A DNA stretch of 37,897 nucleotides. Origin: Halorubrum saccharovorum DSM 1137. Lineage in GTDB: Archaea > Halobacteriota > Halobacteria > Halobacteriales > Haloferacaceae. Each line of letters starts with the position of its first letter. Within the stretch, counting starts at the first letter, position 1. Below the pieces are notes generated by a model, which ran no database searches, was not told the origin of the DNA, and was given only the letters and a program-made list of their open reading frames with translations. Below are positions 1-36,147 of this stretch, one piece after another. The translations under genes were made by a program, and so were the position numbers. The DNA is taken from contig NZ_AOJE01000060.1 in assembly GCF_000337915.1 (NCBI RefSeq), positions 124,251 to 162,147 on the forward strand, given 5' to 3'.

Positions 1-111
1 CCTCCCCAGCCTCGTCGCTCGGTCGGGGCTCCCGGCGGTCGCCCGCTCCCTCGCGACTCCCTCGCGCGTGCTCCTCGCGCCCTGCGGGCGCTCGGAGGCA
101 CGCGCCACCGC
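1..111 (-). repeat. Dispersed structured repeat, copy A (partial, runs off the window)
   Basis: Read on the minus strand, this begins GCGGTGGCGCGTGCC and ends GACGAGGCTGGGGAGG at base 1, so the rest of the element lies to the left of the window. It contains a stem-loop at 66-103: GCGTGC pairs with GCACGC outside and GCGCCC with GGGCGC inside, with GA opposite GA between the helices. It matches copy C (35783-36147) and copy B (16261-16522) almost base for base in the conserved islands, and differs in the spacer between the GTCGC and GCGAC arms. I see no convincing coding potential here. Function is unknown. Confidence 0.85.
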
Positions 112-1701: not shown

Positions 1702-3183
1702 ATGTCCGAGAACACTGATCTGATCATCGTCGGCGGGGGAATTAGCGGGGCGTCGCTGTTGTACACGGTCGCGAAGTTCACCGACATCGACGACGTGACG
1801 CTGATCGAGAAGGAGCGGGAGATCGCCGCGATCAACTCCCACCGGACGAACAACTCCCAGACGCTGCACTTCGGCGACATCGAGACGAACTACACTCTCG
1901 AGAAGGCCGAGGAAGTCAAGGAGGGCGCCGAGCTGCTCGCGGGCTATCTCGAGGGGACGGATCCGGACCGGGAGATGCACAGCAAGCGCAGCAAGATGGT
2001 GCTCGGCGTCGGCGACGAGGAGGTCGCCAAGCTGGAGGAGCGTTACCGCGAGAACGGGTTCGGCGACCTCTTCCCGAAACTGCGCGAGATCGGCCGCGAG
2101 GAGATCGAGGAGCTGGAGCCGAAGGTCGTCGAGGGCCGCGACCCGTCCACGGAGCTCAAGGCGCTCCAGACGCCCGACGGCTACGTCGTCGACTACGGCG
2201 CGGTCGCGAAGTCGTTCGTCGACGCCGCCCGCGAGGAGGAGGGCGTCGGCGTCCACCTCGGCACCGCGGTCGAGAACGTCGACGAGGGCCGCGACGGGTT
2301 CACGGTCGAGACCGACGACGGCGACTTCGCGGCCGACGCGGTCGTCGTCGCCGCCGGCTCCCACAGCCTCCAGTTCGCCAAGGAGATGGGATACGGCGAG
2401 CACATGTCTCTGCTGCCGGTCGCAGGGAGCTTCTTCCTCGCCGACGACCTGCTGAACGGGAAGGTGTACACGCTCCAGATGAAGAAACTCCCGTTCGCCG
2501 CGGTCCACGGCGACGCCGACGTGCACGACGACGGGGTCACCCGGTTCGGCCCCACCGCGAAGCTCGTCCCGACGCTCGAACGCGGCCGGTTCTCCACCGC
2601 GAGCGACTTCGCCGACGTGTTCGGCTTCTCGCCCGCGTCGGTCCTGAGCTACGCCAACATCCTCTCGGACCGCATCCTGTTCCCGTACGTGGTCCGGAAC
2701 CTCGTGTACGACCTCCCCGAGGTCGGTAAGCGCGCGTTCCTTCCGAACGTCCAGAAGGTCGTCCCCACCGTCGACGTCGACGACATCGAGCGCGCGAAGG
2801 GGTACGGCGGCGTGCGTCCGCAGATCGTCGACACGAAGAACAAGGAGCTCGACATGGGCGAAGCGAAGATCACCGGCGACGGAATTCTGTTCAACATCAC
2901 GCCCTCGCCGGGCGCGTCGACCGCGCTGAAGAACGCGATGACCGACGTGCAGACCGTCCTCGACTTCTTCGACGAGGACCACGAGTTCGACGAGGAGGCC
3001 TTCCGCGAGGCGACGATCGCGAACTTCCCGCGGGTCGACGGTGGCGCGGAGACGGACGCTGACGAAGACGACGACGCCGGGGTCGAAGACGACACAGAGG
3101 CCGAAGACGACACCGGGGCCGAAGACGACGACGCCGAGGACGACGACTCCGACGACCGCGTCCCCGCCAAAGCCGACGACTGA
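1702..3183 (+). CDS. mqo: Malate:quinone oxidoreductase-type FAD enzyme with acidic C-terminal tail
   Basis: This 493-residue FAD protein begins with a dinucleotide-binding motif (IIVGGGISGASLL, residues 8-20). It continues with segments I recognise from the campylobacter/helicobacter-type malate:quinone oxidoreductases: NNSQTLHFGDIETNYT near 50-65, a PVAGSFF segment near 240, LPFAAVHGD near 263, and a late GYGGVRPQ and TPSPGAS pair. Such enzymes oxidise malate to oxaloacetate at the membrane and reduce quinone. The last 45 or so residues are a low-complexity Asp/Glu tail (EDDDAGVEDDTEAEDD and similar) encoded by near-repetitive DNA. The tail merges with non-coding tandem repeats just past the stop. 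It is absent from the family core and probably dispensable (inference). Confidence 0.82.
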   Translation: MSENTDLIIVGGGISGASLLYTVAKFTDIDDVTLIEKEREIAAINSHRTNNSQTLHFGDIETNYTLEKAEEVKEGAELLAGYLEGTDPDREMHSKRSKMVLGVGDEEVAKLEERYRENGFGDLFPKLREIGREEIEELEPKVVEGRDPSTELKALQTPDGYVVDYGAVAKSFVDAAREEEGVGVHLGTAVENVDEGRDGFTVETDDGDFAADAVVVAAGSHSLQFAKEMGYGEHMSLLPVAGSFFLADDLLNGKVYTLQMKKLPFAAVHGDADVHDDGVTRFGPTAKLVPTLERGRFSTASDFADVFGFSPASVLSYANILSDRILFPYVVRNLVYDLPEVGKRAFLPNVQKVVPTVDVDDIERAKGYGGVRPQIVDTKNKELDMGEAKITGDGILFNITPSPGASTALKNAMTDVQTVLDFFDEDHEFDEEAFREATIANFPRVDGGAETDADEDDDAGVEDDTEAEDDTGAEDDDAEDDDSDDRVPAKADD

Positions 3184-3320
3184 CGCGACTGACGCGACAG
3201 AGGCGACTGACGCGACTGACGCGACAGAGGCGACTGACGCGACTGACGACGGATCGGGACGACGGATCGGGACGACGGATCGGGACGACGGATCGGGACG
3301 ACGGATCGGGACGACGACTG
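3178..3320. repeat. Compound tandem repeat (9-bp then 13-bp units)
   Basis: From the mqo stop codon onward the DNA is built of 9-bp units, GCGACTGAC and the variant GCGACAGAG, arranged in a 27-bp higher-order pattern. It then switches to five copies of a 13-bp unit, GACGACGGATCGG, whose GGATCGG cores start at 3251, 3264, 3277, 3290 and 3303. The tract lies between convergent genes. It looks like slippage-prone satellite DNA continuous with the repetitive acidic tail of mqo. Confidence 0.9.
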
Positions 3321-3343
3321 GACCCGTCGGTCCGACCCCCGTT

Positions 3344-16260: not shown

Positions 16261-16375
16261 TCAAAGCCCCAGTCGCGACGACTCGCGTGGCTCGCCGCGC
16301 TCCTCAGTCGCTCGTTTCACTCGCTCCCTGCGGTGCTTGCGTCGCCAAGCGTCGTCCTCGCGACTGCCCCTTTGA
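16261..16375 (-). repeat. 3' module of copy B with terminal inverted repeat
   Basis: In element orientation the ends are TCAAAG-GGG-CAGTCGCG (16375-16359) and CGCGACTG-GGG-CTTTGA (16277-16261). The outer 6 and inner 8 bases pair perfectly, around opposed GGG runs. Copy C has the same outer CAAAG/CTTTG and the same GGG runs, but a different inner stem that is again self-complementary. Confidence 0.85.
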
Positions 16376-16475
16376 GTCCCACCCGACCGCACCGCCCCGC
16401 ACCTCACTCCTCCCCAGCCTCGCCGCTCGCTCGGGGCTCCCTCCGGTCGCCCACGTCGCTCGCGGCGTCCCTCGC

Positions 16476-16514
16476 GCGTGCTCCTCGCGGCCTGTCGGCC
16501 GCTCGGAGGCACGC
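16476..16514 (-). other. Stem-loop 1 of copy B
   Basis: The outer helix is GCGTGC/GCACGC and a three-pair TCC/GGA helix follows. GA lies opposite GA, and then comes the inner helix GCGGCC/GGCCGC closed by a four-base loop. Copies A (66-103) and C (35791-35828) have GCGCCC/GGGCGC in the inner helix, so two base pairs have changed on both sides. Confidence 0.85.
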
Positions 16515-16614
16515 GCCACTGCAGTCGATTACGTAGGCACTCGATCCAGACAACCCCAGGCGCGTTGTCGCCGGTTCCGACACGGGTTTGACCCGGGCGA
16601 GGTCACCCGTTGAC

Positions 16615-35119: not shown

Positions 35120-35776
35120 ATGGACGAGAAGACCTCCGATCTCCGCGACATCTTCGTCGAGACCACCGGGTCCGAGACGGTCACCGAGCGGCAGGCGGAG
35201 TCGCGCGGGACGCTCACCGACCGCGACGAGGCGGCGGTCGACGAGCGGGTCCGAGAGCTCGTCGCCGCGATGCGCGAGCGGTACGACTTCTCGACCGACC
35301 TCGACGACGCGACGTACGCTCGGATCGCCCGCGCGCGCTTCGAGGAAGACGACGACGAGGCGATCGCGTCCGCGCTCGTCGAGGAGCGCGAGGAGGGTGG
35401 AAATGGAGAGGAAACCCCGCCCGTCGTCGACCCCGCGGCCGTCCGCGACGCCCGGCTCGACCTCCACCTCGTCCGCGAGGTCGACCGCGACGTCGACGAC
35501 GCCTCGTTCGAGTACGACGACCTGAAGCAGCTGACCGCGGAGGGGCGCTCGATCCCCGAGTGCGCCGACGCCCTCGACGCCGACCCCGACGTCGTCGCGA
35601 AGCACGCCCGCGTCGCCCGTGTGGACCTGACTTCCACCCGCGCGAACGACCGGTTCCGCGACGAGTTCCGCGACCTCCTCACCGACGCCGAGATCGAGGG
35701 CTCGCACGCCGAGACCGCCCGCGACGACGGGCTCGAAGAGGCGACCGAAGACATGGAGACGGACGTCTCTTTATAA
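35120..35776 (+). CDS. Haloarchaeal conserved protein, possibly 'conditioned medium-induced protein 4'
   Basis: This 218-residue acidic, charged and mostly helical protein starts MDEKTSDLRDIFVETTGSE. I recall a haloarchaeal family named conditioned medium-induced protein 4 with a similar start; that name comes from growth-dependent expression, not a known activity. The middle (SFEYDDLKQLTAEGRSIPECADALDADPDVVAKHARVAR) reads like a helix-turn-helix. TTATTTACC (35089-35097) is about 27 nt upstream, giving a leaderless message. The stop codon is inside the TTATAAGCGA that precedes repeat copy C. Confidence 0.7.
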   Translation: MDEKTSDLRDIFVETTGSETVTERQAESRGTLTDRDEAAVDERVRELVAAMRERYDFSTDLDDATYARIARARFEEDDDEAIASALVEEREEGGNGEETPPVVDPAAVRDARLDLHLVREVDRDVDDASFEYDDLKQLTAEGRSIPECADALDADPDVVAKHARVARVDLTSTRANDRFRDEFRDLLTDAEIEGSHAETARDDGLEEATEDMETDVSL

Positions 35777-35780: not shown

Positions 35781-35790
35781 TTGCGGTGGC

Positions 35791-35828
35791 GCGTGCCGCC
35801 GAGCGCCCGCAGGGCGCGAGGTGCACGC
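35791..35828 (+). other. Stem-loop 1 of copy C
   Basis: The outer helix is GCGTGC/GCACGC, followed by GCC against GGT, which allows one G-U pair. GA lies opposite GA, and the inner helix GCGCCC/GGGCGC closes a three-base loop. The same shape occurs in copies A and B with compensated differences. Confidence 0.85.
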
Positions 35829-35985
35829 GCGAGGGAGTCGCTGGCGCCGCCGGCGCCAGCGACGAGGCTGGGGAGGCGTGAGGCTGCGGTCCCGCGAGCG
35901 GAGCGAGCGGGAGCACGGAAGTCGCAGCGCTGAGCGCAGCGAGGCGGTCGTCTTCCGGCGGTTGCTGTGCGGAATGGGTGGGGCT

Positions 35986-36147
35986 CAAAGGGGCAGCCGC
36001 GTCGACGAAGCACGACGACGTAAGCCGCGTGGCGCGTAGCGCCACGGGCAGCCGGCGGCAAAGCCGCCGGCGACACCGAAAGGAGCGAGTGAAACGAGCG
36101 ACTGAGGAGCGCAACGAGTCGCGCGAGTCGACGCAGCTGGGGCTTTG
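35986..36147 (+). repeat. 3' module of copy C with terminal inverted repeat
   Basis: The left arm is CAAAG-GGG-CAGCCGCGTCGAC (35986-36006) and the right arm GTCGACGCAGCTG-GGG-CTTTG (36127-36147). The outer five pairs and 12 of 13 inner pairs form, around opposed GGG runs. The inner arm sequence differs from copy B, yet pairs just as well. Inside are two extra hairpins and the 31-base block (36082-36112) shared with copy B. Confidence 0.85.

Follow-up and report, generated by a model that had tools for sequence, protein, structure and literature searches.

The stem-loop at positions 16476-16514 of the window, the stretch of 37,897 nucleotides analyzed here (C60:124251-162147 of the source genome G000, 3.42 Mb in 72 contigs), is the 5' hairpin (P1) of an oriented, folded, non-coding intergenic element. 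This element has a fold that is specific to one strand, two-sided changes in its helices, a conserved unpaired core, a spread of many intergenic copies and a long retention at orthologous sites. With a probability of about 0.5, we regard it as a dispersed intergenic Halorubrum element whose function is tied to the fold of one strand, presumably as RNA, and whose copies would once have spread as a mobile unit that carries no gene. Our best guess as to its nature is a protein-binding structured RNA that was dispersed as a non-coding mobile unit.

Architecture of the element and its copies in the window

To describe the element as a whole, loci of the source genome and of named genomes were compared. 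The order of parts is P1, a variable P2, the conserved CGAGGYTGGGGAGG.GTGAGG, an optional P3 and a long P4, and the length ranges over ∼110-520 nt, typically ∼250 nt. P1 often has TTTATAA on its 5' side and then starts with TGC-GGTGGCGCG. It is built from an outer helix (GCGCGTGC/GCACGCGC), a bulged C, a helix of three base pairs, a GA/GA step, an inner helix of mostly 6 or 9 bp and a loop of 3-4 nt. The sequence GCGAGGGA links P1 to P2, which varies in sequence among copies and forms a near-perfect hairpin in each. On the 3' side of the core, a low-complexity GTGCGG stretch or the optional P3 is followed by GGTGGGACTCAAAGGGGCAG and P4, after which comes CTGGGGCTTTGGAGGTGTTCACC. P4 spans a median of 91 nt between two G-tract motifs (range 8-270 nt) and has an invariant GGG/GGG internal loop at its base. 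Conservation is highest in the unpaired, G-rich core, reaching 95% or more at most positions in 139 copies. The G-tracts of the element are TGGGGAGG, AAAGGGG and TGGGGCTT; there are three near-invariant GGGG runs and one less conserved run of GG/GGG, whereas a G-quadruplex requires four stackable runs of three or more G.

The window contains three copies, and their P1 hairpins lie where the first-pass annotation had located them (A, 66-103; B, 16476-16514; C, 35791-35828). Element B (16262-16520, minus strand), recognized by comparison with other loci of the source genome and by RNA folding, is complete with P1, P2, conserved core and P4 and is flanked by a TtuA-like gene on one side and a DUF4442 gene on the other (Pfam). 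Its hairpin P1 is present as annotated, with limits that have to be set two pairs wider: it runs from 16474 to 16516 and comprises an 8-bp outer helix, a bulged base at 16508, the 3-bp middle helix TCC/GGA, the 6-bp inner helix GCGGCC/GGCCGC and the loop GACA. The tandem GA/GA step of this P1 is formed by 16503-16504 opposite 16485-16486, again on the minus strand. P2 of B (16421-16468, minus strand) is a hairpin with more GA/GA steps, and other hairpins take its place at the orthologous site of other species. The conserved core of B, CGAGGCTGGGGAGGAGTGAGG, occupies 16402-16422 (minus strand), and the long P4 arm at 16262-16374 (minus strand), defined by pair counts and the fold, consists of the helix CAAAG/CTTTG, the internal loop GGG/GGG and an arm CAGTCGCGAGG.../...CGTCGCGACTG.

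Element C (35785-36147, plus strand) is likewise complete, with the optional P3 and extra P4 hairpins, and lies between the ORF 35120-35776 and the SRP54 gene. Its P1 (35789-35830, plus strand) has the inner helix GCGCCC/GGGCGC, the middle helix GCC/GGT and the GA/GA step, and is followed on the same strand by P2 (35837-35863, GTCGCTGGCGCC/GGCGCCAGCGAC) and the conserved core (35863-35883, CGAGGCTGGGGAGGCGTGAGG). The TATA-like box TTTATAA directly 5' of element C (35770-35776) overlaps the stop codon of the ORF 35120-35776. Element A (1-108, minus strand) is cut by the window start; its P1 lies at ∼64-105, and positions 66-103 read GCGTGC TCC TC GCGCCC TGC GGGCGC TC GGA G GCACGC. The element is oriented from P1 to P4, with A and B inverted relative to C. 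The GA opposite GA, previously described as constant in all three copies, holds only for the minus strand in the case of A and B, whose plus strand has TC opposite TC, and for the plus strand in the case of C.

A single N flanked by duplicated sequence was observed inside three elements (L042 at C60 ∼124250-124360, L033 and L014), which are assembler joins within repeats. Because element A is such a join, the sequence beyond it at the window start is uncertain. On the reverse strand of L040 (G000:C67:53000-56000, just before 443), CTGTCTCTTATACACATCT and then an N stand beside the element and resemble a Nextera adapter at a scaffold join.

RNA folding of element B yielded -133.8 kcal/mol (z -3.89) and showed the proposed hairpins, and a z of -4.38 was obtained for element C. 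Energy alone cannot pick the strand, since the complementary strand folds well too (z -3.45), as palindromes should.

Distribution in Halorubrum and genomic setting

The stem region of B has 39 matches in the source genome at E ≤ 1e-3, far above chance. When two mismatches were allowed, the core motif was found at 58 places in this genome and at 17 to 195 in seven others; with up to ∼195 copies, the element is among the more abundant non-coding sequences of Halorubrum chromosomes. In a sample of 391 genomes of the class, searched with one mismatch, all 46 Halorubrum genomes contain the core motif (13-194 per genome). It also occurs 110 times in G214, which belongs to a related genus, 5-49 times in five of the eight genomes of genus g17 and at most 13 times in a few other genomes, and is absent from most haloarchaea in the sample. 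A reversed control pattern produced two matches among the genomes listed. Pattern matches in named genomes are overwhelmingly from Halorubrum, with some from Haloparvum, Halobellus and Halorussus, which together with the results obtained within the genus assigns the window to Halorubrum. The matches to a covariance model of P1 fall almost wholly within the genus. In Halorussus, the linker and the core are the same, P1 is a different hairpin that lacks GA/GA, and P4 was not seen. A viral or plasmid origin was ruled out by 0 matches in viral contigs, none in phage records and, in plasmids, one partial and one short match.

The copies are intergenic, 80 of 83 being free of overlap with predicted genes as called by a simple composition heuristic. 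The median distance to gene ends on the 5' side is ∼60-70 nt, and that to gene starts is at least 120 nt. The four classes of neighbor orientation contain 28, 19, 19 and 17 copies, so that no fixed orientation is apparent, and a 5'UTR switch or a terminator was ruled out because the neighbors stand in any orientation. An orientation bias along the chromosome was likewise dismissed: in G175, 91 and 90 copies lie in the two orientations and there is no excess of runs.

The spacing of the copies in G175 is slightly more even than random, with 10 gaps below 2 kb compared to 20 expected and a coefficient of variation below that of 98% of random sets. Such spacing of ∼190 copies in one chromosome, together with their intergenic position, would suit an architectural or boundary element of double-stranded DNA resembling REP/BIME, in which the palindromes serve as cruciforms or protein sites, e.g., for chromatin or supercoiling. 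We consider this improbable. A cruciform would treat both strands alike, yet GA/GA is present on one strand only and the wobbles are polar, G.T outnumbering A.C by 49:17 in P4 and by 73:23 in P1, i.e., ∼3:1. Moreover, G020 has just 17 copies, and a chromosome-wide role is therefore not general.

Selection on the fold and exchange between copies

The proposal that the fold is under selection is borne out by P1. In a strand-specific alignment of 38 distinct, ungapped sequences, 98.6% of 646 pair cells are standard, compared to 84.4% in shuffles and 19-62% in slid structures; in part, the inner-helix pairing and the constant GA follow from the choice of sequences, which were selected by a pattern that demanded GA/GA and few inner mismatches. 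The same pattern fixed the outer arm on its 5' side only and left the middle helix free. Two-sided changes were counted in 73 cells at 8 of the 17 pairs (shuffles 20.8 ± 3.3, with 0 of 500 reaching 73), and the covariation score of 0.372 compares with 0.115 for shuffles and at most 0.086 for slid structures.

Covariation above the phylogenetic background, which the first-pass annotation had proposed as a check, was assessed for 98 sequences with our own R-scape-like script. On a MAFFT alignment, the substitutions on tree branches were redistributed over the columns as a phylogeny-aware null, and an APC-corrected G statistic was used. Helix pairs of P1 take the first six ranks among 903 column pairs. 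Tested against all pairs, their E values are 0.0033, 0.057, 0.26, 0.73, 2.0 and 2.3, one of them below 0.05; with the test confined to the 16 proposed pairs (rescaled), each of the six is below this limit.

P4 provides a second, independent case of a kept fold. Twelve positions of its arms are 86-99% paired with several pair types, e.g., AT 47, GC 36 and CG 31. In the base helix CAAAG/CTTTG, A-T is replaced by G-C in 22 of 121 copies and the flanking GGGG tracts are unchanged, an invariance that is partly due to selection of the copies, since the tracts served to find them.

Sites B and C were then traced in relatives by means of their neighboring genes. At site C, which adjoins SRP54, the position of the element is shared by G012, G015, G005 and G003, and the P2 hairpins differ. 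At site B, 12 of 19 other Halorubrum genomes carry the element; it is not intact in G003, G007 and G014, and is missing in G009, G011, G019 and G020. The middle helix of the 13 readable copies at site B, including that of the window, reads TCC/GGA, TGT/ACA, GAC/GTC, TGC/GCA, CGT/ACG, GCC/GGC or TGT/GCA; across 13 species and seven triplet combinations, 38 of 39 pairs are kept. The inner helices are of several kinds, each of them paired, with one mismatch overall. These pairs at site B are the strongest evidence for a fold maintained in place.

Paired changes on both arms had previously been taken as compensatory, but many two-sided changes result from replacement of whole hairpins and not from stepwise compensation. 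In addition to GCGCCC/GGGCGC and GCGGCC/GGCCGC, the versions GGCCGC/GCGGCC, GCGTCC/GGACGC, GCGGCCGCC/GGCGGCCGC and GCGGTCGCC/GGCGACCGC were found. Since these versions recur at numerous loci and replace one another at a single orthologous site, the inner-stem changes are partly block exchange between copies. At site B whole hairpins have been replaced, and because identical hairpins occur at unrelated loci, recombination between copies probably produced many of the two-sided changes. Cleaner evidence for selection on the fold than the inner stem comes from the 3-bp middle helix. Shape is probably what evolution keeps, since the sequence changes and hairpins are swapped, yet both arms stay matched.

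Exchange of this kind also bears on a reading without any selection on the fold, in which the arms of a selfish repeat pair mechanically because its palindromic copies undergo template switching or gene conversion with one another. The swapping of whole hairpins as blocks and the identical P2 modules at unrelated loci are as expected from it, and part of the pairing could indeed arise from recombination or template switching within palindromes. As an account of the element, we judge it very unlikely: simple repair of a palindrome would turn GA/GA into pairs, yet these mismatches are kept in 13 of 13 orthologues at site B. Furthermore, the most conserved part is the unpaired G-rich core, and the 3-bp middle helix varies within constant surroundings.

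The folded molecule and its relation to known systems

The G-U pair of copy C had been put forward as a sign of RNA. This argument fails, because G.T wobbles form in single-stranded DNA as well; from the predominance of G.T over A.C the folding strand can be identified, but not its chemistry. Judged from the sequence, the balance nevertheless leans toward RNA over DNA as the folded molecule, the points in its favor being the long conservation in place and a TATA-like box borne by the element. Of 97 copies, 44 have such a box no more than 30 nt 5' of P1. Its frequency is 22 of 42 with the upstream gene directed toward the element and 12 of 24 with the gene directed away; a role as promoter of the neighboring gene is unsupported, the box being independent of neighbor orientation (p = 1.0 and 0.21 for the 5' and 3' sides, respectively). 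Together, the intergenic copies, their free orientation and the orientation-independent box suggest an autonomous unit. The spacing of the box counts against RNA. It lies ∼14 nt before the start of P1, and the usual archaeal distance from TATA box to start is ∼26 nt, so that the start would lie inside the 5' arm of P1. Near 200 copies per genome are also many for an RNA gene. A further point against RNA comes from the apical loops, which look DNA-like: 79 of 184 triloops are GNA, and tetraloops are GNYA rather than GNRA in a ratio of 20:3. GNA and GNNA loops are known from very stable DNA mini-hairpins (PMC4686876).

The selected molecule might instead be single-stranded DNA. The element would then be a mobile or recombination unit that is not autonomous, and a protein would recognize the fold adopted by its top strand in the course of replication or transfer, a logic comparable to that of IS200/IS605, REP hairpins or attC sites. 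Besides the GNA/GNYA loops, the scattering of copies without preferred orientation to genes, the hairpin modules common to different copies and a DNA energy model, which leaves the main hairpins of the RNA model unchanged, agree with this idea. We nevertheless hold it to be unlikely. A Y1 transposase (PF01797) is absent from G016, a genome with 128 copies, and just one or two were found in the other genomes searched, at 17 or 195 copies alike. No internal transposase-like ORF was noticed in any copy, and the copies have stayed intact at the same sites for long, unlike dead transposon copies.

If the folded molecule is RNA, as we prefer, the element would be transcribed, and its variable hairpins may form a scaffold around a protein-binding or quadruplex-like center made of the invariant G-tracts. 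The copies would formerly have spread as a mobile unit that encodes no gene itself, and hairpins may now be swapped by recombination among them. The RNA would most likely function in a structural or regulatory RNA-protein particle. A quadruplex might form in the potassium-rich cytoplasm; in Haloferax volcanii, G-quadruplexes have been detected within cells (PMC12873603). The invariant G-tracts could exemplify G-rich folding in a potassium-rich archaeal cytoplasm. A more far-reaching proposal, possible but doubtful, is a new haloarchaeal family of abundant structured RNAs or single-stranded DNA folds, with a G-tract or quadruplex core suited to molar potassium, arms that act as swappable cassettes and an architecture kept at each site.

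A search of Rfam 15 gave no family match in the whole window, and at E ≤ 1 four chance-level matches in five loci lay far below the gathering scores. The repeat has no annotation or paper that we found, the literature searched being open-access, where absence is no proof of its being undescribed. A kink-turn, the L7Ae-binding motif with an unpaired 3-nt bulge by tandem G.A, was ruled out, as the three nucleotides beside GA form a covarying helix. The element resembles the REP/BIME sequences of enterobacteria and pseudomonads, which are associated with RAYT, in its many scattered intergenic palindromes, its orientation and its lack of coding capacity. However, REP/BIME are ∼35 nt long and the Halorubrum element is ∼250 nt long with several domains, its copy number is unrelated to the Y1 transposase, and it also occurs between divergent genes. 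A REP mobilized by RAYT was rejected, G016 having 128 copies and no PF01797 match.

The omega RNAs of the HEARO/IscB type and their non-coding derivatives are large multi-hairpin RNAs with many scattered copies, often without an ORF. The element is similar in size, hairpins and scatter but has another conserved core and no Rfam match, and no nuclease ORF was noticed beside its copies, whose flanking genes were classed by orientation only. GOLLD, ROOL and OLE are long, highly structured bacterial RNAs with variable arms, usually present in one or a few copies per genome; the long fold and variable arms are shared, but the element is multi-copy and without an Rfam match. Like MITEs and non-autonomous IS of haloarchaea, it is a short non-coding repeat scattered in haloarchaeal genomes; in contrast to MITEs, no terminal inverted repeats or target duplication were identified in it, and across species its fold persists at orthologous sites. 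The AT-rich repeats between genes of HF1-like haloviruses (PMC7230728) are something different.

With its conserved fold and its hairpins that turn over rapidly at fixed sites, the element offers a natural experiment on the evolution of structured nucleic acids. Tests are feasible, since Halorubrum lacusprofundi has a targeted gene-knockout system (PMC5052560).

Some copies are modified or extended. A unit of ∼57 nt, consisting of the 3' end of the element and TTTATAAGCGA, sometimes occurs in tandem 3' of the element, e.g., in L007, L013 and L014; it is sometimes diverged, and some of these units resemble deletion derivatives of the element. Very large versions (L083 300-1300, L075 and L077) have added double-hairpin modules, e.g., GGTTCGAGAGAGC...CGAACGACAGCGAGC, in P1, P2 or P4, and these extra modules are common to unrelated copies and species. 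P4 of L082 contains an AT-richer insert of ∼100 nt with the inverted ends GAGGAAC...GTTCCTC, possibly another small mobile element. Elsewhere in the window, two short tandem arrays at 3177-3329, with a 9-nt unit (CGACTGACG/CGACAGAGG) and a 13-nt unit (GACGACGGATCGG), lie right after the end of an ORF.
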